NCBI GenBank assembly: GCA_947561585.1
Contig: CANNZV010001140.1
Location: 1-64,000, forward strand
DNA: 64,000 bases
Origin: Caprella mutica
Taxonomy: Eukaryota; Arthropoda; Malacostraca; Amphipoda; Caprellidae
Reading direction: 5' to 3'
The notes beneath the pieces were generated by a model. It ran no database searches. It worked only from the letters and a program-made list of their open reading frames with translations, and was not told the origin of the DNA. The position numbers and the translations under genes were made by a program. Below are positions 28,073 to 64,000 of this stretch, in pieces. Each line of letters starts with the position of its first letter. The stretch's first letter is position 1.

Positions 28073-28515
28073 CAGAGATGGGCGAAAAGTACATCGAAAG
28101 TACTTAAGTACCAAGTACAAGTACTCGTAAATCAATGTACTTGAAGAAGTTGCCCAAGTACTCAAATAAAAAAGTATTTTCAAAGTACAAGTACCAAGTA
28201 CTTTTTAGAGTATTTTAAAGTACCAAGTACATTTACTATACAATTTAAAAACTAATAATTTATACTGTTAACTCTGATAGTACATCTTCTCAGTGACTTT
28301 TTTCTCTGATAGTACATCATCACAGTGACTCTTTTCTCTGATAATACATCATCACAGTGACTCTTTTCTCTGACAGTACATCATCACAGTGATTCTTTTC
28401 TCTGATAGTACATCATCACAGTGACTCTTTTCTCTGATAGTACATTATCACAGTGACTCTTTTTTTTCTGATGGTATATCACCACAGTGACTTTTCTCTG
28501 ATAGTACATCATCAC
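28073..28515 (-). mobile_element. Element A copy 2, first half (right end plus satellite)
   Basis: Starts CAGAGATGGGCGAAAAGTAC after the 8-mer GCTGTGGT, passes through AAGTACTT-type repeats and about seven 32-bp satellite units, and is cut at 28515 by element B. The other half lies inverted at 55412-55964 with the 8-mer CCTGTGGT (read in this orientation) on its outer side. Confidence 0.85.
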
Positions 28516-28539
28516 TAGGGCTGTGACATGGCTTATTTC

Positions 28540-28740
28540 GCATATGCTCGTAAGAATTTGCTTATACTTTTTTGAAGCATATGCATTTTGTAAGGGCTTT
28601 AAGCAAAATCATTTGGGCATATGCTTTTTGTTAGAGCTTCAAGCAAAATCATTCGAGCATATGCTTTTTGTTAGGGCTTAAGCAAAATGTTTCGAGCATA
28701 TGCTTTGTCAAAGAGCTTATCTAATTTTAAAGCATAATAT
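28540..28740 (+). repeat. Subterminal repeat cluster of B (left end)
   Basis: Five or six copies of CATATGCTTTTTGTTAGGGC / AAGCAAAAT-type units. Motif AGCATATGC recurs. It mirrors the AGCTTATAAAGCATAT cluster at 38215-38360. The position suits transposase-binding sites. Confidence 0.7.
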
Positions 28741-28999
28741 CCTTTCGTTGAGGCTTTCGTGAACAGAAAACATCTTAAACTGTTCATGAAAAAGTTGATA
28801 TATAAGTAACACAGATTACCTACATATTCAGTAATCAATTCATTCTGTGGAAGTTCCACGTGGCATCAAGTGCAATGTATTATTATAGATGCCTCAGATT
28901 AGAACCATTTTTCTTTCGTGTTAACTCACTTAGCTCTTTTAATACTTCTTCTTCTATATTAATTTTCTTCTTTAATACGATGTTGTATTTTTCATACTT
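28741..28999. other. Internal B sequence without gene
   Basis: AT-rich. Short frames only. It ends at the retrotransposon target site TTGCTGCTCTAT (29000-29011). Confidence 0.4.
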
Positions 29000-30687
29000 T
29001 TGCTGCTCTATCCCCCCCCCCCCCCCCGAGTGTGCAACATTGACGTTGTGGGGGGGCTTGAGCGCTTCGAAGAAGCGAGGAGCTGTGCCAGTGGGGTGAC
29101 CTAGTCACCCCGGAAGATGCAATCATGCTGGAGAGGTCCTCACGGAGGAGCCAGACCAATAGCTCACGACGATAGACCTCTGGTAACTGACGCGGAAAAC
29201 CCAAAAAGGAAGGTAACCTTACCAAAAATCCCCTCCGATATAGGTATAATCAAATATGAAAAGTACAAATATGGCCACGGCCCCCAGTCCCGGGCAGCCC
29301 CTCCAGTCGTCGCTGAGTGGGGGGCAAGGGGGTGCTAAGAATCTCCCGGTCCAATTGAGCGACACCTCGGCAACGAACGCATCTCCATCTGACTCTGTAC
29401 CTGGAATAACTCAAAAACCAAGTGGCTCGGGTGAGCCCCAATCTTCCAATATGCCCTGTGCATCAAAATCCAATGCACATGTCCAGGTAGTGGACAAATC
29501 TACAGGTAGATCGTCTACCAGACCAAGAGAACGTAGAGAGAAAAACACCTTCGACGAAATGTACTCCACCAAGAACTTTATAAAATACTACTCAATTAAA
29601 TCTAAAAGTGATGCAAACCTAACTAAACTAAATGTGTTCAAAGTTGATAGAGCCATCAGAATCCTAATTGGACCATTTGAAAGAATATCTGAAGACTACA
29701 ATAATAAGACATGGACCATAGAAGTTAGAGCAGCACAAGGACTAAAATTGCAACAAATGACCGAACTACTCTCTGAACAAATCATTGTAACACCCCATGA
29801 ACATCATAATAAATCACAGGGAGTGGTCACTTGTGCACTCCTCAAGGGATATAAAGATGAAGAAATCGCAGAGGGACTTGCTGAACAGGGAGTCCTCAGC
29901 TGCCGAAGAATTGTGAGAAAAGCAAAGTCACCCAACCCGGAACCTACTACAACACTAATACTGACCTTCAATACACCTAACCCACTAGACCGTATCACCA
30001 TCAGAACAGGATTAATAGAAAGAGCAAGACTTTATATACCCCTTCCCAGACGATGCTTCAACTGCCACCGATATGGACACTCTGGAGCCAAATGCAGGAA
30101 ACCGGTGCCAGTCTGTGGTCGATGCAGCAACAATATAATAGGAGACCATAACCAGCAAACATGTACACTCCCTATAAATTGTGCAAACTGCAAAGAACCT
30201 CATAGTGTATCCTCTAGAACCTGCCCTAAATATCTAATAGAAAAAGAAATACTGGCCCTCAAAACGAAGGAACACCTTTCTTTTGCTGAAGCCAGAGCTA
30301 AGGTAAACTCCACCTCCAAAATCATATGCAGCGGCAACCGCTACTAAACCAACAGACAAAACTAAAGATAATAGTAATAATAACATGCCAAAACAAAGAA
30401 TTGAGGAATCTATTTGCAATAACGATAATAACAACAATGATTATACACCAAACTACAACATGGAACAGAGAAAATCCACCAAAAGAACATTTTGCAGAAC
30501 TGACTCATCTTCACCAGAACGAAATAAAACCAAGAAAAAGCATAATAAACCATCTAAAATTCCCAAACATGACGGAAACTACCATTCCCCTATCCGAAAT
30601 GATAGCGAACCAATGGAAACAACCATACCACCTGACAAAATTGAGAAACAAAACCCAGCCCCAGATTTACATGAAATAACCCAAATA

Positions 30688-31982
30688 CAGGGTGGGGCGT
30701 AAGTTTGGAAGCAATTTTTCAAACATTAATATAATTCTTAAAAATAAGCTCCTAAGTAGGTGATAGGGTTTGAACTATAGTAGAGACACTACATTATGAC
30801 GTGGCAGTGTTATTTTTTACAAAATTTAGTCAATTCAAAAATGTCAGACAAAAGAGAAGCCATTATTGCTCTACACCGTGCCGGGAAGTCAGATTCCGTC
30901 ATTTCAAAGACTCTCTCAATAGCGAGATCGACTGTTTGGAAGTGTGTGAAGCGTTTTAATGAGAGAGGAGACTTGACTGATTGTCAAAGAAGTGGTAGAC
31001 CACGCTCACAACGCACCAAACAACTGATAAAATGTGCCCGAGAGAAGATCAGGAGGAACCCGAAAAGGTCAATACGATTGTTAGCCAAAACAGCTAATGT
31101 GAGTCCCAGAACAATGAGAAGAGTTGTCAAAGAAGACCTAAAGATGTCCTCTTTCACCCTCCAAAAGAGACAGACTCTGTCAGAAGCTGTAAAGAAATAG
31201 AGATTGGAGAGAAGCAAAGCACTTCTGAGAGAATTGAAGTCTGGCACGGCTGGTGAAATTGTTTGGTCTGACGAAAAAATTTCACAGTGGAAATGGCTCA
31301 CAACCGGATGAATGACAGAATAATTGGTAAAAGTGCAAAAAACATCCCATACAACCAAAAAACTGTCCACAGAACCATGAAACCTGCTTCAGTAATGGTC
31401 TGGGCCACCGTTTCAAAAACTTGGAGATCTCCTTTAATTTTTGTGGAACAAGGCGCCAAAATCAATGCTAAATGTTATATTGAGAATATTTTGACGCCAA
31501 TGTTAGAGTCAGCTAAGGATCACTTCGGTAATGACACTCTATGGACAATTCAGCAAGACGGCGCGACTTCACATACTGCAAATGTCACTCAAAACTGGTG
31601 CCATGACCATCTTCCACGGTTTTGGTCCAAAGAAATGTGGCCTCCTTGCTCCCCAGATGATAATCCTATGGACTTTTCGGTATGGTCCATTCTTGAATCA
31701 AAGGCCTGTGGTAAATTCCATCGCAGTGTGGATGATTTAGAGCGTTCGCTTCAGAGATCTTGGAAGGAAATTTCACAAGAACAGTTGCGTGCCGCAGTAG
31801 GAGGAGTTCGGAGGAGATTTGAGGCTGTTATTAAAAACAAGGGGGGACATTTTGAATAAATTTATGATTTTTGAATTCTTAAAACCTTTATGTAATAATA
31901 CATAACTGTAAATCATTAAATATATGTTTCGTTGGATTATAATATGCACTTTCATTTGCTTCCAAACTTACGCCCCATCCTG
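30688..31982 (+). mobile_element. maT-type (DD37D) mariner, copy 2, complete ends
   Basis: 1295 bp. Starts CAGGGTGGGGCGTAAGTTTG and ends, reverse complemented, CAGGATGGGGCGTAAGTTTG. TA duplicates lie at 30686-30687 and 31983-31984. It is inserted in the 3' part of non-LTR ORF1. The same insertion at the same site is present in the inverted copy from 63358. Confidence 0.95.
30796..31859 (+). pseudogene. maT (DD37D) transposase with nonsense and frameshift
   Basis: Same protein as copies 1 and 3. Helix-turn-helix regions lie in the first 134 codons, likely initiating at MSDKREAI (30841). A TAG at 31198-31200 stops translation after AVKK, and one T is missing at about 31282 just after VWSDEKI. 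The remaining 31287-31859 frame holds the rest of the catalytic core (IQQDGATSHT, SPDDNPMDFSVW) and the full C-terminus (RRRFEAVIKNKGGHFE). The protein is inactive as written. Confidence 0.92.
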
Positions 31983-32079
31983 TAGAAAACGACATACTGA
32001 ATAGTGCTCGTAAAGCATTCAAACACAGGAAGAAAGAGAAAAATGCACAGCACAACAAGAAATAGCCCACCAGATCCAT

Positions 32080-35000
32080 ATGAATCCCCAACACAAGATA
32101 ATACAATGGAATTGTCAAGGCTATAGAGCAAAATATGAAGATCTATGTAAATTACTGAATCAAGAAAACCCCGCAATAGTTATTCTACAAGAATAACCAT
32201 GTTAAACCATCAACCACTTCGCCCACCAAATAGCTATTGTGTATATAGTGACTTCCATGCTCCAATCCCAGGACATGGACTTGCAACCCTAATAAAAAGA
32301 GATATACCCCACTTCATACTTAACGTCCAGACTAATCTCCAAGCCTCAGCATTCAGAATACAGCTTTCCTGACAGTACACGATACTTAATATATACCTAC
32401 CTCCAAGGTAATTTATACAACTTGATGAAATTAACACAATTATAGATCAACTTCCTCCAACTTCAACTCAAGACATCCCTTGTGGGATAATGGCTGTAAC
32501 CAACCTGATGCAAGATCACGCACAATTGAAAATCTGCTGCTCTCCTCATCCTTATCAATACTAAATACAGGTAATGCCACCCATCTCCACACTCAGACTG
32601 GAATAACATCTGTCATCGACATCACTTTATGCTCTGCAATCCTATCCACGGAATTATCATGGTCAACTTTGGATGACCTTCATGGTAGTGACCACTACCC
32701 GATTGTGATAGTAGAGATAGCAACTGAGGCTCAACCTGCTGAACCTAGGTTCTTAGAGCACAGAGCAGACTGGCAAACATTTCAACAAAGTACTACAATA
32801 GAAGACTACGAATCCCTAACCAATAACAATACAATTGATGAACTTATAGATAATATACAATATCACATCATCGATGCAGCGAACATCTCTATTCCTAAAT
32901 CATCAGGCAAAATCTACCCTAAAACCGTACCATGGTGGACCCCCGAATGTACCAATGCAATCAGAGAACGAAAAATAGCCCTACGCAAATACCAACGCAG
33001 CAAACTCATTGCAGATAAGATAGCCTACTGCAGGGCTCGTGCAATAGCAAAGAAAATTCAAAATGAATCCAAAATACTCTCATGGCAAAAATATGTATCT
33101 AAAATCAATATAAACACTCCAATGTCCATAATTTGGAAGAAAATACGAAAAATCAGAGGAACATACCATAGCACCAAACCCCCATACCTCATCAAGAATA
33201 ACCAGATAATTACTGACAGCGAGACGGTTGCTGAAATGATGGCAACTCACTATGAAACTATAAGCAGCAATAGAAACTACAATCAACAGTTCAGAAGATT
33301 GCAACGATCAAAAGAGCATACTATAAACTTCAAGACGCAACAAGATCTAAAATACAATAGCCCACTTACAATCATAGAATTCAAACGCATGCTCTCTCTA
33401 TGTGGTAATTCTGCTACAGGAGAGGACAAAATGAGCTATAACATGATTAAAAACTCAGATGAAAGTAGCCAACACTTCTTATTATCAATAATGAACAAAA
33501 TATTTGACTCCGGCATCTTCCCAACCAACTGGCGAACAAGCATTGTCCTCTCATTTCCTAAACCTGGAAAAACACCTACAATAGAAGAAAATTACAGACC
33601 GATATCCCTCACAAGCTGTGTAGGTAAACTCATGGAGAAAATAATAAATGCAAGACTCACCATCATACTTGAATCCTCAAACCTCATCCCACCTCATCAA
33701 TTCGGCTTCACTAAGCAAATTCTCCTCAGACATCCATAACGCTCTTAACCAAAAGGAACAGATTCTATGTGTCTCTTTTGACCTCCGCAAGGCTTATGAC
33801 ACCACCTGGAGACATGGAATTCTTAAAACCATTTATGAATTTGGCCTACGAGGAAAACTTCCAGTTTATCTCCAACAATTTCTACAGAATAGACTATTCA
33901 AAACAAAAATAGGAACCTCATTCTCCCAAGACCACAGCCTGGAGCAGGGAGTTCCTCAGGGCAGCGTCCTGAGCTGTACCCTGTTCTTAATTGCAATCAG
34001 TGGCATCCTTGATGCTACTCCTAATAACATCAATGCCATTCTCTACGTTGACGATCTCCTGATATACTGCCAAGGCAACTATAGACCATCCATGGAAAGA
34101 AGACTCCAAGCTGCAATAAACTCCATCAACCACTGGGCCACAACACATGGTTTCACCTTCTCCGCTCCTAAAACTAACTGTATTTACTTCCACCAAAATC
34201 GAAAATGGCAACCCCTTGCACATCTGACGCTCAACGGATCCATAATCCCTCATAGAGAATCTATTCAATACTTGGGCCTAATCTTCGATCACAAGATGAC
34301 TTGGAGAGAGCACATAAAAAGGATTAAAAATGACTGTATGAAGAGACTCGATATCCTAAAATGCCTCTCCCACACATCTTGGGGATCTGACAGAGTGATC
34401 ATGCTACGACTGTACAGGGCGATCATCAGATCCAAGCTAGACTATGGTAGCACCATATACTTCTCTGCTAAAGACAACATCCTAAAATTACTAGATCCAA
34501 TCCACAATTCAGCAATCAGACTATGCACTGGAGCATATAGGTCATCACCAATGATAAGCCTATATGCAGAGAGTGGTGAGAGCCCTTTGATTGCCAGAAG
34601 ATCTCAATTGATAATGCAGTATTATGCAAGAACCCTCCAACTACAAACTTCTGCAGCCTACCCAAATGTTCACCAAGCACAAGATGACCATGACCTAAAC
34701 CACTCAGTAACAAGCACTGCAAACCTTATCAGACAAAACTTAAACAATCTCCATTTGAATATCTCGACATTACCTTTCAAATTTTCCAACCAACCAACAT
34801 GGCAGATAAACCCTAGCATCCTCTGTACAAAACATGACTATCCAAAAAAAGACTCTTGCGATAGCTACACTATGAGAAGCTACTTCAATGATCACTTCAG
34901 CCAGCACCATCACCATCAATTTCCCATCTACACTGATGGATCTAAGAGTGAGATGGGAGTCGGATGCTCTGCTGCCAGCCTGAGAGGATGCATCAAGATG

Positions 35001-35758
35001 AAGCTGATGGCTGAGAGCTCAATCTTTACGGCTGAGCTCTGCGGACTACTATGTGCCCTGAAGATAATAGAGTAAACCAGGAAGAATTCATCTTGCTATG
35101 TGATTCACGTAGCGCGCTGAGTGTACTCCTACACTACGACTCCACTCATCCCTTGATCTCCAGAATAGTAAGAACTGTCATTAGATTACAAATGACGAAC
35201 AAAAAGATTCAATTCTGCTGGTGTCCATCCCATGTGGATATCCCCGGCAATGAGAAAGCAGATAGGATGGCGGCAGAAGCCGCAACCCAGAACACCCCGA
35301 TAATGAATCTGAAAATACCATACAAAGACTGGTACTCTATTATCAAAAAGAAAGTGAGAGGCGTGTGGAGAGAAGAATGGAGGAATGTACCCAATAATAA
35401 ACTCCGTTCTCTGAAGGAGACTGTAGATTGCTGGCCATCAAGTAACCAATCAAATAGAAAACACTCAATCATGCTAACCAGACTAAGAATAGGACATACA
35501 AAGATAACCCACCAACACCTCATGGAAAATAGAGAACAACCCTACTGTGATGACTGCATTGTACCACTCTCAGTGAAACATATAATAGCAGAGTGTCCAA
35601 CACACTCGGACACTAGACGAAGAATATACCCAGAAGCAACACAGGAACCAAACGAAACAATGAAGCTAATACTAACCGAAAACAAAGACCAACCATATGA
35701 CCTCCACAGACTGCTTCAATACATTAGACAGATTGGAATAGTTGATGAAATAGTGTGA
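32080..35758 (+). pseudogene. Non-LTR ORF2 (endonuclease, reverse transcriptase, RNase H), multiply broken
   Basis: Starts at ATG 32080 (NPQHKIIQWNCQGYRAKYED), the usual N-terminus of an apurinic-type endonuclease. EN motif GSDHYPIVIVE is at about 32690. RT motifs include NYRPISLTSCVGKLMEK, SFDLRKAYDTTW, GVPQGSVLSCTLF and the catalytic ILYVDDLLIY (about 34042). RNase H has FPIYTDGSKSE, AELCGLLCALK, LLCDSRSALS and SHVDIPGNEKADRMA, then a C-terminal Cys/His knuckle (CDDCIVPLSVKHIIAEC). Stops occur at about 32195 and 32370, with a frameshift at about 33715 (shared with the other copy) and a 4-bp loss at about 35072. Open segments are 32480-33739, 33648-35075 and 35051-35758. Confidence 0.92.
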
Positions 35759-35957
35759 ATGAAACCTGAATAAATGAAGAGTGCGATGCGAAATAGGAAG
35801 CCCTGAAGCATCAAGAATACCAGCTTACATCAAGGTTCCAAGGTTGCTGCTCTATATTATAAATACACGTTATGTCGAACATGAGCCATCACCTAATTTT
35901 TTTTTGCAAATCTTAATTTCAGATTCGTAATTGCAGTAAGTTTGAAACTTTGACATA

Positions 35958-36462
35958 GCGAATTCTATTCCAATAGAATTGAAATATTGTAAGGACAATC
36001 GAGGTATGTTGTTTGCATGACATCATAACAACAACACTCTAAAATCATATTGAAATTTTAAAGTAAATTTGTAAAAACAGTTATTAATTTGCATAATATA
36101 TTAAATAAATATATATTTTATCAATTATTTAACCTGCCAAACCCCTAATTTTCTCTTTAAATTTGTTCCCTTGCTTATGTCACGTCACAAATCACTTAAT
36201 TGTCGCTACTTATCAATATTAGTATTTATTTGGGAAGGCACCAAAGAGTAAAGCTTTGTGAGCTGTGTTTACAAATCGAGTGATTTGTGACCGTGACGTC
36301 AACAAGGCAACACACATAAATAGAAAATTAAGGTTAAGCTCTGTTTTTATAATAGAACGTTCTTCAATTGTATTAAATATTATTTTAGAGTGTTGCTGTT
36401 ATGACGTCACGAACACAACATGCCTCGATTTTCCTTACAATATTTCAATTCTATTTCCAGGT
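35958..36462. repeat. Long inverted repeat inside B (about 505 bp foldback)
   Basis: The left side GAATTGAAATATTGTAAGGA, TCGAGGTATGTTGT and GACATCATAACAACAACACT is mirrored by the right side ending CCTTACAATATTTCAATTC. An inner pair is also complementary (GTCACGTCACAAATCACTTA against GAGTGATTTGTGACCGTGAC). CRE-like TGACGTCA occurs at 36294-36301 and 36403-36410. The inverted copy is at about 58915-59420. A 78-codon frame at 36265-36501 lies in the arm and is not credible. Confidence 0.75.
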
Positions 36463-36772
36463 TTTAAAACCAGATTGCGCCACAACGCACTTTTTAAATA
36501 GAAATTGTCGACAGTAGTGTATCTTATTGTAGCATAATATCTTTAGCGTAACTCTTTAAATTTTTAGAAAAAAAAATCAATTTGATAGCTTGCACGAGCT
36601 ACCATCCAGGCCAGGATAACTAAAGTTGCTAAATCAGTCAATAATTTTTTTTTGTATATTCATAACTAAATCCAATGCTCTAGAAATTTTAACTGACAAG
36701 ATTTTCCGAAAGTTCTACAAAGTTGAAGTGATAGTATAATTGTTTCTATTTCAATGTGTTGTGTAGGCTCAG

Positions 36773-37160
36773 GGTGGAAAATTCGGTCTCTGTTTATAAT
36801 GGTGTTATGAAAGAATAATAATATAAAAAGTTGAAATTATTATGTCTTAAATGTGTAGTTTATTTATTAAAATAGGATAACATTAACCGTTTTAAACTGA
36901 TTAGTAACATTAGAAATTTGACATTTATTTAACATGAAATTTGAGCGGAAAATTCAGTCTCGGAAATATCGGTCTCGGAATATTGGCTTATGAATTAGAT
37001 GAATCCGGGGCATTCGCCCCCGAACCCCCCTACTACGTCATTAAACAATCAGGATATGTGCAATACAACAAACTCATTTATGTTAAGAGGTCATTTATAA
37101 TTTTAAGACCGAAATGTCAAGACCGAATATTCCGAAACCGAAGTTTCCGGCCCCCTGTTG
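36773..37160. repeat. GC-rich repeat module, copy 2, with CGGTCTCGG inverted motifs
   Basis: AAATTCGGTCTCTG (36778), then TTCAGTCTCGGAAATATCGG TCTCGGAATATTGG (36954-36987), the GC core GGGGCATTCGCCCCCGAACC (about 37009), and an inverted match AAGACCGAATATTCCGAAAC (about 37119). The order and motifs form an inverted-repeat mini-element. A related core is at 27480-27580. Confidence 0.55.
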
Positions 37161-38214
37161 TGTAATTCTAAGCAAAGAATCAACCATGTATGTATAGAAA
37201 AACGCAAAATCAAGCTATTTTCAAGAATGACAGACAATTTTATTCCTTCATTTCGAGTAATAACGATCAACATGTTTCCCGTAGGAATCTACAGTGTGCC
37301 CAATAAGGCTATGCTTTTACTGTCTAAAATTATAAAGTATAGTAAACAGCGCATAAAGTTTTTGAGATACTGTCTCTACTGGGTAATTTTCTATTGATAC
37401 AGTGTTGCAAGTTTTTCAAGATAACTCTTCTCTGATTAGTTCATATAAACTATAGTTTGATGAACTAAGGTGTCTCGCTTTAGTGACAAAGCCTTAGGAT
37501 GAACTCGAAACACCTGGGTTCAAGTTCAAGTTGTTTATTTTCCCCAGTTTGTGTTGAATTAAATCACATTTCAAATAATAGAACTTTGAAACTCTCGACA
37601 TATATGGTTGTAATGTGGTTTGTTATTTCAGCTAGTTTGTTTCACTGTACACTTCATTATTGTCTCAAGTTGATTGTTTTCCATTGCCTAGCATTCAGGA
37701 TTCCTAAAGCAGCACGCCTCCCAGTCAATGATCTAGTAACCTTAAAAACAATACCCTAAATAACTTATCCGCAATTAACAATATTTTTAAAACTATATTC
37801 TAAGTGGTAGTAACCTTTTATTTTTTAACCATAGAGGTGCCACCCGGAATATACTTATAGTGCAGCCAACTAATAAAATTTAACTTCATTGACTGGGTGC
37901 TAACGCGCCCCATACCACGGAAAATGAATTCTAGTGATGAATTTTTCCAATGTAAAATCTACATTTGTTTAATCAGGGGTTGCTATATTTATTTATTTAA
38001 ATAGTTTTCTTTGAAGATGAAAATATCTTTTATACATAATCAGTTCATTTTATATTTCCTGAAATATCTATTAGATACCTATTTAGTTAAAAGATACCTA
38101 TTTAGTTAAAAGATACCTATTTAGTTAAATAATAATAGTGTTCCCCTTGATTATTGCTTGTTTTCTTCAACCAAAAGAAATTTTTTAACTATATACTATT
38201 GTATATTTGAAAGC
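37161..38214. other. Internal B sequence, no gene
   Basis: Contains ATAAACTATAGTTTGAT at about 37446, a half of the hairpin that is complete in the other copy (57549-57830). About 290 bp of that hairpin are missing here. Near 38085-38130, AAAAGATACCTATTTAGTTA is tandemly repeated two to three times. Short open frames (about 37158-37397, 37499-37759) are also present in the other copy but show no known motif. Confidence 0.45.
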
Positions 38215-38372
38215 ATATCTATTAGTAAAAGCTTATGCATCTTCGTATTCGAGCTCTTAAAGCTTATAAAGCATAATCTGAAACGGTTTTACAGCCTTAT
38301 TTTTGGAGCTTATAAAGCATATTTTTAGAGCTTATAGAGCATATCTTGTAAGGCCTTACAGTCACAGCCCTA
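38215..38372 (+). repeat. Subterminal repeat cluster of B (right end)
   Basis: Four copies of AGCTTATAAAGCATA-type units (38250-38350) precede the terminal GTCACAGCCCTA. The identical cluster starts the inverted copy at 55965-56120. Confidence 0.7.
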
Positions 38373-38444
38373 ACTAAGAAATTATTAATCACATGTATGT
38401 AGATTTAATGTAAATCAGGCGGGAAACTGGAGTGGCGTGTACGT

Positions 38445-41627: not shown

Positions 41628-41630
41628 TAA

Positions 41631-51155: not shown

Positions 51156-51616
51156 GCAGTGACACTGCGGCGGTGAAACTACTAGTGTAGTAGGTATACG
51201 CATTACCATTAATTTAGCTGCAGGAGATTTTCAATTAATTCCTATGTTACCATAAACTTAGATTACTTAGCTGCGGGATATTTTAAAAAACTTGGCTATT
51301 TTGGAGAGAAATTTCAAAATCTTCAGAGAGAAATTGCCACAAAAACTAAATAAAGACGTACATTCCTGTTGTCTATTGAGTTGATATTGTCGAAAATTCC
51401 ATGTTTCAAAGTGTGGCAGGAAAGTCCCCAGCTTGGTGGAAAAAATGGATCAAGGTCACCACATTTAAGATAACTTGAAGAAGAAATATGACTTCCTAGT
51501 GAAGATTTAACACTTGAAACATCTTTATGCATCATGTCTGACTATCTGATGCTTGTGTATCACTTGAGACTATCTATAAGTGATTTACTTGCTATTTATA
51601 GGTTTCCAAACTCATC

Positions 51617-51669
51617 CCCCCCCCTCCCCCATTCTACATAATCAGATTCCTGCTGATTATGTAGAATCT
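51617..51669. repeat. C-tract and perfect 15-bp hairpin
   Basis: CATCCCCCCCCTCCCCC is followed by ATTCTACATAATCAG, seven bases and CTGATTATGTAGAAT: a perfect 15-bp stem. Confidence 0.7.
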
Positions 51670-54600
51670 GAAGTAGAAAATCAGAAATTCCTGCTGAGTT
51701 CATTGAGTTAACCTAGACAAAATCTCTGCAGAGTTTCTCAAATTCTCCATAAATCTGGATCAGAGTTATATGGTTCTGTAGACTGGATGCTATCATGCTG
51801 GCAGCCACAGAAGAAAACCCAAATTCTGACAGAGTTACCTGGATTCACAACTCGAGAATTCATAATCTCAACGACAGAGTAACTGGTAAATTGTTCATAG
51901 AGATCTCTTATTCTGTTTGTAGCAAAATTAATGTAAATATAGGAATTAAATCAAAATTGATCGGAGAGAATATCCCAAATATCTCCCATATTCATTATTC
52001 TGCAGACTGGAGTCAGAATTTATTAATGATTACCTCTGCATAGTATGATAGTGCATAGTATTAGACTATTAGTAAACTAAGTAAAGCATGCAGTGCAGAG
52101 TTCACATTTTTTCAAATATTATGAAATATATAACTGATTTGCCACAGTCTGCAGAATATGGGACATTTTTAACATTTTCTGTGTGAACAATCCTTAATTT
52201 CCTCCTATACTTACATGTATTTAACTAAGAAAAAAAGCCAAAATAAAGGATTTCTTGGAGAACAGTTTACCAGTTCCTGCAGTCTGGCAGTGATTTGTAG
52301 TAGTTAAAACTTAAAAGAAACAATCAGAAGTCTGAAGAGAGTTATTTTTCCATCATGGGAGGTCGGGCAGCTGCCATAGAATGAATAATGCAGACGCCAG
52401 ACCAGAGTGGAATAATAACTCATTTCAGATTAACTAGTAACTCTGTTAGGAATTTAGAATGGACAAAAATTACTCATTTTAACCCAAAAAATGCAGAAAT
52501 CAGTAAATTATTTTATAAATTTCAACTCCGCAGTGAAAACTGATGTAAAATAAGTCATTTATGCTTCACAATTCAGACAATTGTGTTTGTTGTGATGATA
52601 AACATCACTAATGGGAATGCATGAAGTTAGGAGTAACTCTGTTAGAAAAGAAACCAATTTCTGGTAACACTCATTGCTAACTAATATAAATAATTAGAAT
52701 TGCGGTCGGCAAACGATAACGGAGTAAGATAGGCTTCGACCAATTGACTCAATAAGCAGTCAATGGGTTCATTTTTTCACGTTTCATCAAATGATAAACA
52801 TAATTCTATATTTTTAAAGTTCTAATGATGCGTTCACCTCGCTGAATAGATCAAAATGTTCGTAAATAACCAGCAAATAAGATTACAATTCACTTCATCA
52901 CTAATTCTGAGTAAATACTTATAATTTTAAAGTTAAACACAATTTGGTCGAAATATCGGTTCGGTCGGCGATTCGATTCTTACTCTATATATCACTATTT
53001 TGCCTATAATATTGTAAGGGAAAATTGCTAAATCAATATTGTTAGTCAGTTACCTAGTGCATGGAAGACTAGCCAATTGAATTAATTTGTTTGCTGGCTT
53101 TTTCAAGATTTTTTTTTTGAAAAGTTAGAGTACCTAGTTCTGTGCACCACTTACAGACTAATAATTATCTTCTAAATTTCATAATTATCTCTGATGACTT
53201 GATTGTTCTGTTGGCAGTCTGCAGAATATGGAATATTTTTTATCCTTTTCTGTGAAAATTATCTTTAGGTTTCTTTTACTTTTATTTCAATGAGAAGTTG
53301 AGAACAATAATGAGATCAGTTTCTATGGACTTTGATATATGATGATCAGTTAATGGGATTTTTAAAATTCAGTGCATTTATTACATTCAACTGTAACCTG
53401 TATGCCAAATAGATTTTAAATAGTGTATTCTTTACTATCAAATATTTTAATTTAAACACCAGACTACTGAAACTGGTAAATTGTTCTAAAATTCTCTATT
53501 TTGCATTCTGTTTTCAACAAAATAAATTTAAATTGAAGAAGATAAGTATTTTTTGCACAGAAAATATTTAAAAAATTAATATTCAGCAGATTTGATTTGA
53601 GATAGTTACTTTCTGGCTTCTGGTAACAATTTAATTAGTTGGGACTGAAATGCTCTCTGAAATCAACCTAAATTACTACTTCTATGGAATTTTAACTTTT
53701 TATAGATACCATGACTTTCATGTGGCTCTTTTTTCAGAGTAATATGATATGAATTTTTGGTAACAGTAGCTACAAAGTGAATGAAATTAAGTAGCTAGTA
53801 CTTTTTCTTTACATTTAATTCTATGTTGTCATCAATAGCTGCGTGATAGCTAATTGATTATTTTTCTCATTCAATTATATTCATTCTCTGCTTTCAAATC
53901 TACTTTATTTAATTCTAATTTAGAGAAGTCCATTGGATAAAGGAAATATGTTCTTGCTGTTACCTAATCTAAGACTGTTTATATCTCTTGCGGATGATTA
54001 TTTTAACAATTAAGTCAATTATCATTATATTCATTGTGAATTTTAGTTTTTTTGCTAATCATTGCTACATAGCTAGTCAGTAATTAGCCTTAATCTCTCA
54101 ATTGTTCTAACTATTCTCAACAATTTCCTAATTCCATATTTTTGCAGACACCAGAGACATTCTAATGAAGACATTTGGGGTGGCTTGCCTACTTTTGCTA
54201 ACATCATCACAACAACAAGAGATTGAGGCCCACAACTGCTGATGTTGGTGTTAACTTTTAGAGGTAAGTTTTACCTATTTATTTGACTTGTAGCTAACTA
54301 TGAATGGGAAGATCTTCATTAATCGATGATTTGTAATTTTCTTTTCAGTCATATGGCTAACTATTGAAGAGGATAGCTTGGCAAGAGAAGTAATCTTCCT
54401 TCTTAGTCTCATTCCAGCCACCCATCTTCAAAGTCTTCTGAAGTTGATCAATATTATGTTTCCTCTGATGACATTATATTTTGAGTGCCAACACTTTTTA
54501 AATGCGATTGATGTAGCATTTTAAACTATTCCAAGTTTTGAATTTGCAATATTGAAAGGAGTGCTGAAACATTTTTTTTACTTTACTGTGAACATCATTG

Positions 54601-55249
54601 TACGATATTCCTTCAATGTTATGATATGAAAGCTCCATGCGTCACTGATTTGTTGAGTCGCTTTGAGAAATAGCTAGCTGTGAACAATTCAGTTCATGAA
54701 CTACTAAATGACTTTTTATTTCTTTGGGTACTTAAATCTTGGAGCTACAAGGAAGCTTTATTTGGGCCTTTTTAAACATAACTATATATAATCTAGTTGC
54801 AGTTTCTCCTTTGATGGTGTGATCTCAAATTTAGTAATTTATTAAATGAGTTAATAGAATTGTTATATTTCTTAAATATTTTATTCATGTTTAATAATAC
54901 ATAAATTGGTAACTTTTTCAATTTGTATAGCTTCTGAGAAACTATTATAATTTTCTACTTACTAATGATTACCAAGTAATGTGTGTTTCTGAAATTTACA
55001 TTTTATATTAAATGTAATTAATTAATTTTGAGTTTTGTTACAATGATTTGATAAATATGGAAAGATTTGCTAAATATCCAATTTAATTATTTATATTGTA
55101 TCTATTTTAACTAACTTAACATAAGTATTATCACTCTATATTTAATAGTTAATCTTCATGCTGTATTATATATGAATTCTTATGAATTTGATTACTACAC
55201 TATTTTGTAATTGAGTGTAGCTAAAGTAAACATTATCCAAGTGACTAAA
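51670..55249. other. Intergenic, no supported gene
   Basis: AT-rich. TTTTTGCAG (about 54141-54149), AGAGGTAAGT (54258-54267) and CTTTTCAG (54341-54348) are good splice-like signals, followed by an open plus-strand stretch to about 54524. No protein family is recognised and the exons are short, so I do not call a gene. Confidence 0.35.
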
Positions 55250-55411
55250 ATAAAATGCATGTAGGTAAAATTGCTTAGCGACTGTAGTTTGAAGGATTAG
55301 TTTATCAGTTAATTATTCTTTTACATGAGGTTTGAATTGCATGCATGTTGGTAAAATAGACAACCAGCTGTAGTTTAATCAATAAGCATGTAGGTAATGT
55401 TTAACCACAGG
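55250..55411. repeat. Diffuse repeats, partner flank of split element A
   Basis: GCATGTAGGTAAAATTGC, GAATTGCATGCATGTTGG and AGCTGTAGTTTAATC resemble, in reverse complement, the repeats at 27900-28072. Confidence 0.55.
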
Positions 55412-55964
55412 CAGAGATGGGCGGGAAAGTACTTCCCAAGTACCAAGTAAAAGTACTAAGTAACAAGTAAGTACTTAAAAGTACTTTCTAAAAAGTACTT
55501 TGCATAATTACTTAGAAGTACTTTTTACAAGTACTTGTTACTTTCCAAGTAAAAAGTACATTTTTTTTCCTTTCAGTCAAGAGATTTTAAAAGATTAAAT
55601 TTAAAATCTCTACAAAATTAATTCTTTTTCTCATCAAAACTGTATTTACAGCAACTGGATAAAAACTAGAGTTTCAAGATGTCCAACATGTTGGAAAATT
55701 GTTTGTCAAGCAGTAAAATTGAAAACTTTGTCAAACAGTAGAATCGAAAACTAAGACTGTAAGACATATTGTACACTTTTATGTGACGGTGAATATTTAT
55801 ATATTCTGACATACAATCATGTATAGAGACTATGAGTTATATTGACCAATTTAAGTACATTGAATATAATTATTTTATGATACCTAGATATCACAACCAA
55901 TATTTACCAAACACATTGACGAATTATAAGCGTGTGGACGTGTACAGTGAGTCACTGTGATGAT
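55412..55964 (+). mobile_element. Element A copy 2, second half (left end), inverted relative to first half
   Basis: Starts CAGAGATGGGCGGGAAAGTA, runs through AAGTACTT repeats and unique sequence resembling 19997-20595, and ends in one satellite unit (GAGTCACTGTGATGAT) at the start of B. The outer 8-mer ACCACAGG is, in reverse complement, CCTGTGGT, one base from the GCTGTGGT beside the first half. Confidence 0.85.
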
Positions 55965-56554
55965 TAGGGCTGTGACTGTAAGGCCTTACAAGATATGCTC
56001 TATAAGCTCTAAAAATATGCTTTATAAGCTCCAAAAATAAGGCTGTAAAACCGTTTCAGATTATGCTTTATAAGCTTTAAGAGCTCGAATACGAAGATGC
56101 ATAAGCTTTTACTAATAGATATGCTTTCAAATATACAATAGTATATAGTTAAAAATTTTCTTTTGGTTGAAGAAAACAAGCAATAATCAAGGGGAACCCT
56201 ATTATTATTTAACTAAATAGGTATCTTTTAAGTAAATAGGTATCTTTCAACTAAATAGGTATCTAATAGATATTTCAGGAAATATAAAATGAACTGATTA
56301 GTAATTTAGTGATTATGTATAAAAGATATTTTCATCTTCAAAGAAAACTATTTAAATAAATAAATATAGCAACCCCTGATTAAACAAATGTAGATTTTAC
56401 ATTGGAAAAATTCATCACTAGAATTCATTTTCCGTGGTAAGGGGCGCGTTAGCACCCTGTCAATGAAGTTAAATTTTATTAGTTGGCTGCACTACAAGTA
56501 TATTCCGGGTGGCACCTCTATGGTTAAAAAATAAAAGGTTACTACCACTTAGAA

Positions 56555-57268
56555 CAGGGGTGGGCACACATTGTATTTTTCAGTGCCGAAAGATGGAATC
56601 TCAGTGCTAATTTTCTTTTCATTTTCTAAATTACTGGGGATACTGATCGAGTAATTATATAATGAGGTGGTAGATTTAATTGAAATACGAACATGTACAA
56701 CGGTACATATTTGGAGCATAAATATTGGTAGTAGGTTTATCATTTGCATTAAAAAGAATTAATATATGATATATAAAAAAATTTCTTCATGTGAAAATAT
56801 CACAATAAAAACAAAAATAAGCTAGCATAAGTAATAATAAGTAACTCATAAATTCACAGGATAAATTACTTACCTAACTTATTAATAATGGGAATTAAAA
56901 ATGATTGCATAAATATTTACCACAGTGTTTGAATGTCCCAAGACAAGCGTATGAAAGATGTAAATTTAACTATCTAGATAAAAGAGACAGAGGTAAATAA
57001 ATTAAATACCGGCACTATTGTAACAATAAACAAAAAAATCCTTAACGGATAAAATTTACTATCAAAGTATCAAGGGCATTCATTATAAATACACTGTTCT
57101 TCAATTAGTTGACCATGCACTTCTATATTATCCTTTTAGTTTATAGAGCAGTCAGGGCTAAAAATTCTTAATTTTCTTTGGAAGAAAATAAAGCACCGTT
57201 TCCCGGGTGGGCAGTGGTGCCTTTTTGAGGGCCAAAATAGCACTGAGTGCTGCATTTGCCCACCCCTG
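56555..57268. mobile_element. hAT-like MITE, 714 bp, present only in the right B copy
   Basis: Ends CAGGGGTGGGCACACATTG and (right, inverted) CAGGGGTGGGCAAATGCAG. Perfect 8-bp duplication ACTTAGAA (56547-56554 and 57269-57276). The left copy has the empty site with a single ACTTAGAA (read TTCTAAGT at about 37798). It is non-coding. Confidence 0.93.
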
Positions 57269-57548
57269 ACTTAGAATATAGTTTTAAAAATATTGTTAAT
57301 TGCGGATAAGTTATTTAGGGTATTGTTTTTAAGGTTACTAGATCATTGACTGGGAGGCGTGCTGCTTTAGGAATCCTGAATGCTAGGCAATGGAAAACAA
57401 TCAACTTGAGACAATAATGAAGTGTACAGTGCAACAAACTAGCTGAAATAACAAACCACATTACAACCATATATGTCGAGAGTTTCAAAGTTCTATTATT
57501 TGAAATGTGATTTAATTCAACACAAACTGGGGAAAATAAACAACTTGA

Positions 57549-57830
57549 ACTTGAACCCAGGTGTTTCGAGTTCATCCTAAGGCTTTGTCACTAAAGCGAG
57601 ACACCTTAGTTCATCAAACTATAGTTTATATGAACTAAAGTGCATCAGTTCGATGCACTTTTGTGTCTTGGTTATAAAAGTTTGTTGAAATGATGAGTGA
57701 ATTATTCTCTCCTGTTTTTTTCCTCATCATTTCAACAAACTTATAGCTATGACACTAAAGTGCATCGAACAGCACCAAAGTGTCTCGCTTTAGAGACAAA
57801 GCCACAGAGTCAACTTGATACACCTGGGAG
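57549..57830. repeat. Long hairpin in right B copy (partly deleted in left copy)
   Basis: Arms around CCCAGGTGTTTCGAG, GGCTTTGTCACTAAAGCGAG, ATGCACTTTTGTGTC and AAGTTTGTTGAAATGATGAG are mirrored by CTCATCATTTCAACAAACTT, GACACTAAAGTGCATCGAA, GTGTCTCGCTTTAGAGACAA and ACACCTGGGA. In the left copy the sequence between the equivalents of about 57637 and 57938 is absent. Confidence 0.75.
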
Positions 57831-58204
57831 CATCGGAATTTCTCAGAGTGCAAGGAAGGGAAGGCCAACAAAGGGCGGAGCACTAACGGTTTAGTGCTCC
57901 GCTCAATGTTGGCTCCTCCTCCTTCTAGCTGATCAATCAGAGAAGAGTTATCGTGAAAAACTTGCAACACTGTATCAATAGAAAATTACCCAGTAGAGAC
58001 AGTATCTCAAAAACTTTATGCGCTGTTTACTATACTTTATAATTTTAGACATTAAAAGCATAGCCTTATTGGGCACACTGTAGATTCCTACGGGAAACAT
58101 GTTGATCGTTATTACTCGAAATGAAGGAATAAAATTGTCTGTCATTCTTGAAAATAGCTTGATTTTGCGTTTTTCTATACATACATGGTTGATTCTTTGC
58201 TTAG

Positions 58205-58600
58205 AATTACACAACAGGGGGCCTGAAACTTCGGTTTCGGAATATTCGGTCTTGACATTTCGGTCTTAAAATTATAAATGACCTCTTAACATAAATGAGT
58301 TTGTTGTATTGCACATATCCTGATTGTTTAATGACGTAGTAGGGGGGTTCGGGGGCGAATGCCCCGGATTCATCTAATTCATAAGCCAATATTCCGAGAC
58401 CGATATTTCCGAGACTGAATTTTCCGCTCAAATTTCATGTTAAATAAATGTCAAATTTCTAATGTTACTAATCAGTTTAAAACGGTTAATGTTATCCTAT
58501 TTTAATAAATAAACTACACATTTAAGACATAATAATTTCAACTTTTTATATTATTATTCTTTCATAACACCATTATAAACAGAGACCGAATTTTCCACCC
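58205..58600. repeat. GC-rich repeat module, copy 3 (inverted)
   Basis: Inverted counterpart of 36773-37160, including GGTTCGGGGGCGAATGCCCC at about 58345. One of the near-identical arms of the B pair. Confidence 0.6.
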
Positions 58601-58914
58601 TGAGCCTACACAACACATTGAAATAGAAACAATTATACTATCACTTCAACTTTGTAGAACTTTCGGAAAATCTTGTCAGTTAAAATTTCTAGAGCATTGG
58701 ATTTAGTTATGAATATACAAAAAAAAATTATTGACTGATTTAGCAACTTTAGTTATCCTGGCCTGGATGGTAGCTCGTGCAAGCTATCAAATTGATTTTT
58801 TTTTCTAAAAATTTAAAGAGTTACGCTAAAGATATTATGCTACAATAAGATACACTACTGTCGACAATTTCTATTTAAAAAGTGCGTTGTGGCGCAATCT
58901 GGTTTTAAAACCTG

Positions 58915-59420
58915 GAAATAGAATTGAAATATTGTAAGGAAAATCGAGGCATGTTGTGTTCGTGACGTCATTACAGCAACACTCTAAAATAATATTTAAT
59001 ACAATTGAAGAACGTTCTATTATAAAAACAGAGCTTAACCTTAATTTTCTATTTATGTGTGTTGCCTTGTTGACGTCACGGTCACAAATCACTCGATTTG
59101 TAACCACAGCTCATAAAGCTTTACTCTTTGGTGCCTTCCCAAATAAATACTAATATTGATAAGTAGCGACAATTGAGTGATTTGTGACGTGACATAAGCA
59201 AGGGAACAAATTTAAAGAGAAAATTAGGGGTTTGGCAGGTTAAATAATTGATAAAATATATATTTATTTAATATATTATGCAAATTAATAACTGTTTTTA
59301 CAAATTTACTTTAAAATTTCAATATGATTTTAGAGTGTTGTTGTTATGATGTCATGCAAACAACATACCTCGATTGTCCTTACAATATTTCAATTCTATT
59401 GGAATAGAATTCGCTATGTC
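58915..59420. repeat. Foldback inside right B copy
   Basis: Inverted counterpart of 35958-36462, with GTGACGTCAT and GACGTCACGG motifs. Confidence 0.7.
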
Positions 59421-59613
59421 AAAGTTTCAAACTTACTGCAATTACGAATCTGAAATTAAGATTTGCAAAAAAAAATTAGGTGATGGCTCATGTTCGACAT
59501 AACGTGTATTTATAATATAGAGCAGCAACCTTGGAACCTTGATGTAAGCTGGTATTCTTGATGCTTCAGGGCTTCCTATTTCGCATCGCACTCTTCATTT
59601 ATTCAGGTTTCAT

Positions 59614-62600
59614 TCACACTATTTCATCAACTATTCCAATCTGTCTAATGTATTGAAGCAGTCTGTGGAGGTCATATGGTTGGTCTTTGTTTTCGGTTAG
59701 TATTAGCTTCATTGTTTCGTTTGGTTCCTGTGTTGCTTCTGGGTATATTCTTCGTCTAGTGTCCGAGTGTGTTGGACACTCTGCTATTATATGTTTCACT
59801 GAGAGTGGTACAATGCAGTCATCACAGTAGGATTGTTCTCTATTTTCCATGAGGTGTTGGTGGGTTATCTTTGTATGTCCTATTCTTAGTCTGGTTAGCA
59901 TGATTGAGTGTTTTCTATTTGATTGGTTACTTGATGGCCAGCAATCTACAGTCTCCTTCAGAGAACGGAGTTTATTATTGGGTACATTCCTCCATTCTTC
60001 TCTCCACACGCCTCTCACTTTCTTTTTGATAATAGAGTACCAGTCTTTGTATGGTATTTTCAGATTTATTATCGGGGTGTTCTGGGTTGCGGCTTCTGCC
60101 GCCATCCTATCTGCTTTCTCATTGCCGGGGATATCCACATGGGATGGACACCAGCAGAATTGAATCTTTTTGTTCATCATCTGTAATCTAATGACAGTTC
60201 TTACTATTCTGGAGATCAAGGGGTGAGTGGAGTCGTAGTGTAGGAGTACACTCAGCGCGCTACGTGAATCACATAGCAAGATGAATTCTTCCTGGTTTAC
60301 TGATTCTATTATCTTCAGGGCACATAGTATTCCGCAGAGCTCAGCCGTAAAGATTGAGCTCTCAGCCATCAGCTTCATCTTGATACATCCTCTCAGGCTG
60401 GCAGCAGAGCATCCGACTCCCATCTCACTCTTAGATCCATCAGTGTAGATGGGAAATTGATGGTGATGGTGCTGGCTGAAGTGATCATTGAAGTAGCTTC
60501 TCATAGTGTAGCTATCGCAAGAGTCTTTTTTTGGATAGTCATGTTTTGTACAGAGGATGCTAGGGTTTATCTGCCATGTTGGTTGGTTGGAAAATTTGAA
60601 AGGTAATGTCGAGATATTCAAATGGAGATTGTTTAAGTTTTGTCTGATAAGGTTTGCAGTGCTTGTTACTGAGTGGTTTAGGTCATGGTCATCTTGTGCT
60701 TGGTGAACATTTGGGTAGGCTGCAGAGGTTTGTAGTTGGAGGGTACTTGCATAATACTGCATTATCAATTGAGATCTTCTGGCAATCAAAGGGCTCTCAC
60801 CACTCTCTGCATATAGGCTTATCATTGGTGATGACCTATATGCTCCAGTGCATAGTCTGATTGCTGAATTGTGGATTGGATCTAGTAATTTTACCATAGT
60901 CTAGCTTGGATCTGATGATCGCCCTGTACAGTCGTAGCATGATCACTCTGTCAGATCCCCAAGATGTGTGGGAGAGGCATTTTAGGATATCGAGTCTCTT
61001 CATACAGTCATTTTTAATCCTTTTTATGTGCTCTCTCCAAGTCATCTTGTGATCGAAGATTAGGCCCAAGTATCGAATAGATTCTCTATGAGGGATTATG
61101 GATCCGTTGAGCGTCAGATGTGCAAGGGGTTGCCATTTTCGATTTTGGTGGAAGTAAATACAGTTAGTTTTAGGAGCGGAGAAGGTGAAACCATGTGTTG
61201 TGGCCCAGTGGTTGATTGAGTTTATTGCAGCTTGGAGTCTTCTTTCCATGGATGGTCTATAGTTGCCTTGGCAGTATATCAGGAGATCGTCAACGTAGAG
61301 AATGGCATTGATGTTATTAGGAGTAGCATCAAGGATGCCACTGATTGCAATTAAGAACAGGGTACAGCTCAGGACGCTGCCCTGAGGAACTCCCTGCTCC
61401 AGGCTGTGGTCTTGGGAGAACGAGGTTCCTATTTTTGTTTTGAATAGTCTATTCTGTAGAAATTGTTGGAGATAAACTGGAAGTTTTCCTCGTAGGCCAA
61501 ATTCATAAATGGTTTTAAGAATTCCATGTCTCCAGGTGGTGTCATAAGCCTTGCGGAGGTCAAAAGAGACACATAGAATCTGTTCCTTTTGGTTAAGAGC
61601 GTTATGGATGTCTGAGGAGAATTTGCTTAGTGAAGCCGAATTGATGAGGTGGGATGAGGTTTGAGGATTCAAGTATGATGGTGAGTCTTGCATTTATTAT
61701 TTTCTCCATGAGTTTACCTACACAGCTTGTGAGGGATATCGGTCTGTAATTTTCTTCTATTGTAGGTGTTTTTCCAGGTTTAGGAAATGAGAGGACAATG
61801 CTTGTTCGCCAGTTGGTTGGGAAGATGCCGGAGTCAAATATTTTGTTCATTATTGATAATAAGAAGTGTTGGCTACTTTCATCTGAGTTTTTAATCATGT
61901 TATAGCTTATTTTGTCCTCTCCTGTAGCAGAATTACCACATAGAGAGAGCATGCGTTTGAATTCTATGATTGTAAGTGGGCTATTGTATTTTAGATCTTG
62001 TTGCGTCTTGAAGTTTATAGTATGCTCTTTTGATCGTTGCAATCTTCTGAACTGTTGATTGTAGTTTCTATTGCTGCTTATAGTTTCATAGTGAGTTGCC
62101 ATCATTTCAGCAACCGTCTCGCTGTCAGTAATTATCTGGTTATTCTTGATGAGGTATGGGGGTTTGGTGCTATGGTATGTTCCTCTGATTTTTCGTATTT
62201 TCTTCCAAATTTGGACATTGGAGTGTTTATATTGATTTTAGATACATATTTTTGCCATGAGAGTATTTTGGATTCATTTTGAATTTTCTTTGCTATTGCA
62301 CGAGCCCTGCAGTAGGCTATCTTATCTGCAATGAGTTTGCTGCGTTGGTATTTGTGTAGGGCTATTTTTCGTTCTCTGATTGCATTGGTACATTCGGGGG
62401 TCCACCATGGTACGGTTTTAGGGTAGATTTTGCCTGATGATTTAGGAATAGAGATGTTCGCTGCATCGATGATGTGATATTGTATATTATCTATAAGTTC
62501 ATCAATTGTATTGTTATTGGTTAGGGATTCGTAGTCTTCTATTGTAGTACTTTGTTGAAATGTTTGCCAGTCTGCTCTGTGCTCTAAGAACCTAGGTTCA

Positions 62601-63260
62601 GCAGGTTGAGCCTCAGTTGCTATCTCTACTATCACAATCGGGTAGTGGTCACTACCATGAAGGTCATCCAAAGTTGACCATGATAATTCCGTGGATAGGA
62701 TTGCAGAGCATAAAGTGATGTCGATGACAGATGTTATTCCAGTCTGAGTGTGGAGATGGGTGGCATTACCAGTATTTAGTATTGATAAGGATGAGGAGAG
62801 CAGCAGATTTTCAATTGTGCGTGATCTTGCATCAGGTTGGTTACAGCCATTATCCCACAAGGGATGTCTTGAGTTGAAGTTGGAGGAAGTTGATCTATAA
62901 TTGTGTTAATTTCATTAAGTTGTATAAATTACCTTGGAGGTAGGTATATATTAAGTATCGTGTACTGTCTGGAAAGCTGTATTCTGAATGCTGAGGCTTG
63001 GAGATTAGTCTGGACGTTAAGTATGAAGTGGGGTATATCTCTTTTTATTAGGGTTGCAAGTCCATGTCCTGGGATTGGAGCATGGAAGTCACTATATACA
63101 CTATAGCTATTTGGTGGGCGAAGTGGTTGATGGTTTAACATGGTTATTCTTGTAGAATAACTATTGCGGGGTTTTCTTGATTCAGTAATTTACATAGATC
63201 TTCATATTTTGCTCTATAGCCTTGACAATTCCATTGTATTATCTTGTGTTGGGGATTCAT
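59614..63260 (-). pseudogene. Non-LTR ORF2, copy 2, broken
   Basis: The same endonuclease-RT-RNase H protein as copy 1, starting at the ATG 63260. Open segments are 62860-62132, 62105-61602, 61693-60836 and 60897-59614. Private lesions: one base missing in the VSKINI region near 62210, and about 35 bp lost near 60895, which splits RT from the RNase H part. The frameshift near 61625 is shared with copy 1. Unlike copy 1, the RNase H junction (CALKIIESVNQEEF) and the RIQLSRQY segment are intact. RT catalytic ILYVDDLLIY is retained. Confidence 0.9.
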
Positions 63261-63357
63261 ATGGATCTGGTGGGCTATTTCTTGTTGTGCTGTGCATTTT
63301 TCTCTTTCTTCCTGTGTTTGAATGCTTTACGAGCACTATTCAGTATGTCGTTTTCTA

Positions 63358-64000
63358 CAGGATGGGGCGTAAGTTTGGAAGCAAATGAAAGTGCATATTA
63401 TAATCCAACGAAACATATATTTAATGATTTACAGTTATGTATTATTACATAAAGGTTTTAAGAATTCAAAAATCATAAATTTATTCAAAATGTCCCCCCT
63501 TGTTTTTAATAACAGCCTCAAATCTCCTCCGAACTCCTCCTACTGAGGCACGCAACTGTTCTTGTGAAATTTCCTTCCAAGATCTCTGGAGCGAACGCTT
63601 TAAATCATCCACACTGCGATGGAATTTACCACAGGCCTTTGATTCAAGAATGGACCATACCGAAAAGTCCATAGGATTATCATCTGGGGAGCAAGGAGGC
63701 CACATTTCTTTGGACCAAAACCGTGGAAGATGGTCATGGCACCAGTTTTGAGTGACATTTGCAGTATGTGAAGTCGCGCCGTCTTGCTGAAATGTCCATA
63801 GAGTGTCATTACCGAAGTGATCCTTAGCTGACTCTAACATTGGCGTCAAAATATTCTCAATATAACATTTAGCATTGATTTTGGCGCCTTGTTCCACAAA
63901 AATTAAAGGAGATCTCCAAGTTTTTGAAACGGTGGCCCAGACCATTACTGAAGCAGGTTTCATGGTTCTGTGGACAGTTTTTTGGTTGAATGGGATGTTT
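63358..64000 (-). mobile_element. maT-type mariner, copy 3 (cut by window end)
   Basis: Starts CAGGATGGGGCGTAAGTTTG after TA (63356-63357). It occupies the same position in the non-LTR element as copy 2. Confidence 0.93.
63481..64000 (-). CDS. maT (DD37D) transposase, copy 3, partial
   Basis: An open frame to the window edge covering the catalytic half. VMVWATVSKTWRSPL, then FQQDGATSHTANVTQNW and SPDDNPMDFSVWSILESKAC, with the complete C-terminus RRRFEAVIKNKGGHFE. The C-terminal deletion of copy 1 is absent. Whether the nonsense and frameshift of copy 2 are shared cannot be seen, because they map beyond 64000. Confidence 0.9.
   Translation of the reverse strand, partial: NIPFNQKTVHRTMKPASVMVWATVSKTWRSPLIFVEQGAKINAKCYIENILTPMLESAKDHFGNDTLWTFQQDGATSHTANVTQNWCHDHLPRFWSKEMWPPCSPDDNPMDFSVWSILESKACGKFHRSVDDLKRSLQRSWKEISQEQLRASVGGVRRRFEAVIKNKGGHFE

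Follow-up and report, generated by a model that had tools for sequence, protein, structure and literature searches.

A segment of 17.6 kb appears to have been flipped between two opposed copies of a mobile element, here called B, on contig C1140. The window, the whole stretch of DNA that was analysed, comprises bases 1-64000 of this 178,896 bp contig. Provided that the assembly is correct, comparison with uninverted relatives supports the reality of the inversion well. Both breakpoints fall within one larger repeat, C, and the inversion therefore lies within mobile DNA. The event looks like one of a known kind, here striking mobile DNA, and a transposon-made inversion is in this case recorded unusually completely within one assembly. 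As the repeat that holds both targets has 174 pattern matches, no second genome is needed to reconstruct the unrearranged order.

An earlier, sequence-only reading of the window had proposed an inversion, a split element A and exchanged target duplications. Its coordinates and words were all correct when re-read in the sequence, and the three proposals are borne out, with the uninverted relatives of C keeping the original order. Two parts of its interpretation reach further than the data allow, namely that a crossover explains everything and that B is a simple hAT element.

Layout of the inverted segment

The features that define the rearrangement are as follows.

27844..28072, + strand: left end of C, outside the inversion; starts CACTGAAAGAAAAG, and its last 8 bases, GCTGTGGT, are the target duplication of A
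28073..28515, + strand: first half of A, hAT-like, with a 32-bp satellite; ends in the B target word ATCATCAC
28516..38372, + strand: left arm, a B composite of 9857 bp, TAGGGCTGTGAC...GTCACAGCCCTA
38373..55964, - strand: inverted segment, 17,592 bp; the C pieces at both ends are reversed with respect to the uninverted copies L058 and L059
38373..38435, - strand: piece of C whose place in the uninverted order is left of the B2 site; its start is the altered duplication TTCTTAGT (read on the - strand)
38445..39314, no strand assigned: mobile repeat D, about 870 bp, with 32-bp inverted ends, inserted in C
44887..47434, - strand: pieces of a P-element-type transposase in the C interior, forward in the uninverted order; Pfam and PDB matches
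52986..55411, - strand: C interior whose place in the uninverted order is immediately right of the A site; at its end stands the altered duplication CCTGTGGT (read on the - strand)
55412..55964, - strand: other half of A; read on the - strand, it begins with ATCATCAC
55965..C1140:66827 (window part 55965..64000), - strand: right arm, a second B composite, 10863 bp

The two halves of A each stop at a TAGGGCTGTGAC end of B, at the positions that had been given for them. A full-length A at 19997-21497 matches the half at 28073-28515 through its positions 1-441 (90%) and the reversed half at 55412-55964 through its positions 907-1237 and 1323-1501 (70-77%). Because the halves match different parts of the full-length element, they represent two different ends of one element and, given the assembly, this comparison shows them to be opposite ends within a single family; the matches rule out that the same end is present twice. 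A second opposed pair in the region (20084-22300 and C1140:69530-71721) carries A with the same 800-bp flank, 91% alike, on one side only, and its right A is without the far end and runs into other sequence. This pair was considered as part of the inversion and rejected, as it lies outside C and has no homology beyond A other than that single one-sided stretch.

The original order of C was read from other copies of the repeat. At up to two mismatches, the reverse complement (rc) of 38373-38395 has 94 + 80 occurrences (174) compared with 0 + 1 for a control. All seven unoccupied C copies that were fetched (L039-L045) are continuous across the B2 site, running through rc(38373-38440) and on into 66828-67144. 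Two of them, L043 and L042, were extended and are referred to in this form as L058 and L059; they are 99.4% alike over 1.8 kb and so are weaker than two independent witnesses. Both have the order 27839/27843-28072, rc(52986-55410), rc(38373-38435) and then 66828 onward, and this colinearity identifies them as the uninverted state, with paralogous C copies, not an uninverted chromosome of the same locus, serving as the reference. The left end of C is 97% alike to L058rc 6016-6250 and L059rc 6327-6556, the interior at 52986..55411 is 94% alike to L058rc 6244-8734, and the piece at 38373..38435, which also has relatives in L039-L045, is 95% alike to L058rc 9383-9445. The overlaps of 7 and 8 bases between successive pieces in L058 are the target duplications, and the C sequence is complete at both C junctions. 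If the assembly is taken as correct, the comparison shows that both C pieces were once adjacent.

The same copies bear on a reading without any rearrangement, in which the pieces of A and C have nothing to do with one another and came to lie at their four places by chance. A and C are indeed multicopy and ATCATCAC is a satellite word, but the four pieces abut the ends of B to the base, and in orientation, order and target words the C pieces agree with the empty C copies. The continuity and colinearity of those copies in effect refute the chance reading, to which we assign next to no probability.

In the window C has the ends CACTGAAAG...CTCTCAGTG, for which no matching duplication was recognised by eye. 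It spans 3.74 kb in L058, and the copy in the window has about 14.5 kb more interior. From its position in the window this long interior probably belongs to C, as does, probably, the P-type transposase within it, as opposed to another nested element. The transposase pieces match the Pfam families TNP-like_RNaseH_N (2e-19) and Tnp_P_element_C (2.5e-6), and 45893-46999 as a query matches the P transposase of PDB entry 6p5a (1.6e-52). A 2-kb look at the expected distance beside an interior paralogue (C1423, L060) found no left end of C there. The interior in the window holds an insertion of roughly 590 bp that three paralogues of this interior do not have. Among 40 scored of 2011 candidates, copies of repeat D, 91-97% alike over query positions 5-874, are found in many further contigs, and C appears to resume after D, judged by eye over some 13 bases. 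No second full-length copy was found of the left flank among 37 scored of 6145 candidates, or of the interior among 40 scored of 5735. Directly left of C, 24300-27476 is a high-copy repeat with longer matches about 89-96% alike in other contigs (37 of 6145 scored). Inside the open frame of the P-type transposase, 47047-47458 holds about 15 copies of a 27-bp repeat encoding an MDSAGPSQR-type peptide.

Target duplications and the composite arms

The two 8-mers flanking each arm agree with one another at only 3/8 and 4/8 positions, against 8/8 and 7/8 when the pairing is exchanged between the arms. The 8/8 pairing alone would be weak because ATCATCAC is also a satellite word of A, a caution that the sequence-only reading had rightly given. 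That reading had further predicted that, past position 64000, the right B copy would end in GTCACAGCCCTA followed by TTCTTAGT. The end was found as predicted, at C1140:66827. The next word is instead TTCATAGT, which agrees with the predicted word at 7/8 positions, a match equalled by 193 of the 178,888 8-mers on contig C1140; it is followed by the right end of C, which extends to C1140:67144.

Both altered words can be understood from the empty copies. Among the listed matches to the left-arm flank (0 or 1 mismatch), TTCTTAGT is seen in the window only and TTCGTAGT at one place, and the others read TTCATAGT, as does the empty B2 target in C copies; the simplest account of TTCTTAGT is thus that a substitution later changed the left copy. 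The empty A target reads GCTGTGGT in both L058 and L059, so that CCTGTGGT in the window is most simply a later change. Given the assembly, the comparisons show both these target words and the nested inserts that the arms have in common, which are listed here with the features found in one arm.

29012..35843, + strand: non-LTR (jockey-like) retrotransposon in B, with 12-bp duplications TTGCTGCTCTAT at 29000-29011 and 35844-35855
30686..31984, + strand: Tc1/mariner-like element nested in the retrotransposon; ends set by eye, inverted ends TACAGGGTGGGGCG...CGCCCCATCCTGTA
56555..57268, - strand: hAT-type MITE, 714 bp, right arm only; CAGGGGTGGGC ends, 8-bp duplication ACTTAGAA
57639..57935, - strand: B segment of about 297 bp, in the right arm and not in the left arm

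The earlier description of B as a single 9.9-kb hAT element has to be replaced: the arms are composites of a non-autonomous element, a retrotransposon and a Tc1-like element. Judged by its sequence, B is a non-autonomous element of the 2-4.5-kb class with 8-bp duplications, and it carries a 6.8-kb jockey-like retrotransposon. Its end word TAGGGCTGTGAC has 380 + 388 occurrences in the 903-Mb assembly (7200 contigs) compared with 9 + 16 for a backwards control. From the first places listed, convergent pairs of exact TAGGGCTGTGAC ends at most about 4.5 kb apart were taken as 17 family members (L021-L037); a wider pair, 8.1 kb on C203, was excluded. Among these 17, which were chosen for exact TAGGGCTGTGAC ends, the 8-bp duplications are perfect in 14, match at 7/8 in two and at 6/8 in one, and B accordingly has the 8-bp target duplication and short terminal inverted repeat of a hAT element. 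No stop-to-stop frame over 114 residues was found in the 17 elements. The target pattern of the family, nTnATnAn, is palindromic. Its central AT, at positions 4-5, is shared by all 17 words compared, each of the three imperfect pairs being represented by its right-hand word; in L023 the left-hand word breaks this AT. The pattern is fitted by ATCATCAC and departed from by TTCATAGT at position 7, and it differs from the Buster-type target word nnnTAnnn (PMC3517528).

Aligned to the family, an arm consists of B at 1-496 and 7329-9857, with the 6.8 kb between them as the insertion. The retrotransposon matches Exo_endo_phos_2 and RVT_1 above the Pfam cut-offs and RNase_H weakly, below the cut-off (22.8 versus 25.8 bits); its first frame, 29256-30347, has no Pfam match, and the named matches of the frame at 33648-35075 among public proteins include jockey and X-element relatives. 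For the Tc1-like element HTH_29 is above the cut-off, and DDE_3 has an E value of 5e-5 but is below it (23.6 versus 28.6 bits). Further copies of this element, 95-98% alike, lie at 11365-12575 and C1140:67549-68643. The retrotransposon with its Tc1-like insert is common to both arms, and the 5' junction between B and the retrotransposon is spanned at 2/40 scored places (294 candidates), both of which are the arms; a third composite copy was not found in this search. As the junction occurs at the two arms only among the places scored and the inserts are common to both, the composite seems to have arisen a single time, in B, before being doubled locally.

The opposed arms are 99.5% alike, with 51 mismatches in 9821 aligned bases (0.52%). 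The mismatches are spread evenly (chi-square p 0.93) and the longest identical run is 747 bp, compared with a mean of 857 in random simulation; neither measure bears the mark of a recent conversion tract between the arms. If an insect-like mutation rate of about 3e-9 per base per generation is assumed, which may not be that of the host, the arms would have parted roughly 0.9 million generations ago. The retrotransposon region holds 36 of the 51 mismatches. The other 15, in the B parts, were polarised by family majority, with eight assigned to the left arm and seven to the right; at six of the 15 the minority base also occurs in one or more family members, which makes 'private to one arm' less than strict. 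The indels between the arms include ones of 35, about 298 and 722 bp. The 714-bp MITE has a match in 0/17 members of the B family. The segment of about 297 bp matches seven of the 17, four of these over most of its length, and its presence in relatives makes deletion from the left arm the simplest explanation.

Routes to the inversion

The account that we consider probable, with considerable room for doubt, combines invasion of C, local copying of the composite B and a crossover between the opposed copies. A would have inserted into C at GCTGTGGT, and B at TTCATAGT, close to the right end of that repeat. A jockey-like retrotransposon would have entered B, and a Tc1-like element would have entered the retrotransposon. 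The composite would have been copied locally, in the opposite orientation, into the satellite of A at ATCATCAC; the second copy may have been placed by standard local transposition in A or, alternatively, in C. The two opposed B copies would then have undergone homologous recombination, which inverted the 17.6 kb, split A and C and exchanged the duplications. For this account we infer the order in which the two B sites were filled, local copying of the composite, crossover in place of transposition and a correct assembly. Long, opposed and near-identical arms are a suitable substrate for crossover, and crossover is ranked first because it needs no unusual transposition. The clean, even divergence of the arms gives no positive sign of crossover, and a chromosome carrying two B copies in uninverted order was not found. 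The departure of TTCATAGT from the family target pattern, the limited independence of L058 and L059 and the lack of a left end of C in the stretch read beside the interior paralogue also weigh against this account.

The sequence-only reading held that a crossover explains everything. It does fit, but is not the sole fit, as a one-step transposition of a hybrid element gives the same junctions. In this alternative a single composite B stands at TTCATAGT in C, and the 5' end of one sister chromatid's B is inserted together with the 3' end of the other's at ATCATCAC in A; by symmetry the original site could be that in A. In one event and not two, this step would yield a second B opposed to the first, an inverted interval and the observed duplications. 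In the available part of the literature, the outcomes of hybrid insertion and of crossover (ectopic recombination) are alike except that the copies are identical in the former and chimeric in the latter (PMC2775673), and inversions in maize have been made by related alternative transpositions of Ac/Ds (PMC8225341). The step predicts arms identical at birth; both share the retrotransposon and Tc1-like insert, the composite 5' junction was found at the two arms only (2/40 scored of 294 candidates), the polarised differences number eight left and seven right, and the mismatches as a whole are even along the arms. Each of these items also fits a recent local copy followed by crossover, and the minority bases at 6/15 polarised sites qualify the count of eight and seven. 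Alternative transposition is, moreover, rarer than ordinary local transposition. We regard the hybrid-element step as unlikely, though with an appreciable chance of being correct. The fuller proposition, that one sister-chromatid hybrid transposition of a hAT-like composite produced both the inversion and the second B copy, as a natural counterpart of the alternative transpositions of maize Ac/Ds, is a doubtful one; if true, a 10-kb cargo was doubled in the same step as the flip.

A further alternative to the crossover account is an error of assembly, with two ordinary opposed B insertions in C between whose 10-kb arms the assembler crossed. Exchanged duplications are exactly the pattern of such an error, and the assembly is in 7200 contigs. 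Against this, contig C1140 is without any N, and the arms can be told apart: they have 51 mismatches, their longest identical run is 747 bp and indels add further differences, so that accurate reads of a few kb could be threaded through them. An assembly flip is thus distinctly improbable in our estimation.

Comparison with known inversions

In the literature on mechanism, the nearest known cases look to be the Galileo inversions of Drosophila and the alternative transposition of maize Ac/Ds. Inversions 2z3, 2j and 2q7 of Drosophila buzzatii were made by Galileo, a transposon of the P superfamily (PMC2775673). As far as the available part of that account extends, the window shares with them opposed element copies at both breakpoints, exchanged target duplications (here 8/8 and 7/8), target words that unrearranged DNA has in a single copy, and insertions that the breakpoint copies received later. 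For Galileo both copies were shown to be chimeric, which decided that case, and standard chromosomes were sequenced, whereas the reference here is paralogous and no third composite to provide parental types was found among 40 scored of 294 candidates. The present case also differs in that the element is hAT-like, the 17.6-kb span lies inside another repeat and the copies share nested inserts. As in maize Ac/fAc, 8-bp duplications are found at inversion junctions bounded by element copies; in the available part of the maize account (PMC8225341) two nearby elements undergo reversed-ends transposition and the segment between them is lost, while here no C is missing at the two C junctions. Reversed-ends transposition between two separate B sites was rejected for this reason, as the DNA between the sites should be lost and the C junctions are complete.

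In mammals, long inverted repeats with opposed arms of about 10 kb around a few tens of kb give rise to short-range inversion, and their arms are segmental duplications kept alike by conversion. The arms here are of similar size, but they are transposons and have no conversion tract.

The approach, a search for known repeats whose two halves stand separated against the ends of opposed elements, could serve to count such inversions genome-wide. These counts could in turn be used to ask what shares are due to crossover and to one-step alternative transposition, which junctions alone do not tell.

Between 28000 and 56000, 10 open frames of at least 120 residues were listed and eight were scanned; seven match transposon-type families or domains and one matches nothing. 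As the scanned frames are transposon-type or without a match, a phenotypic effect is not indicated. Elsewhere in the window, 5557-5895 and 10320-10658 are 339-bp direct repeats, 100% identical and 4.76 kb apart from start to start, which may be the LTRs of a young retrotransposon.
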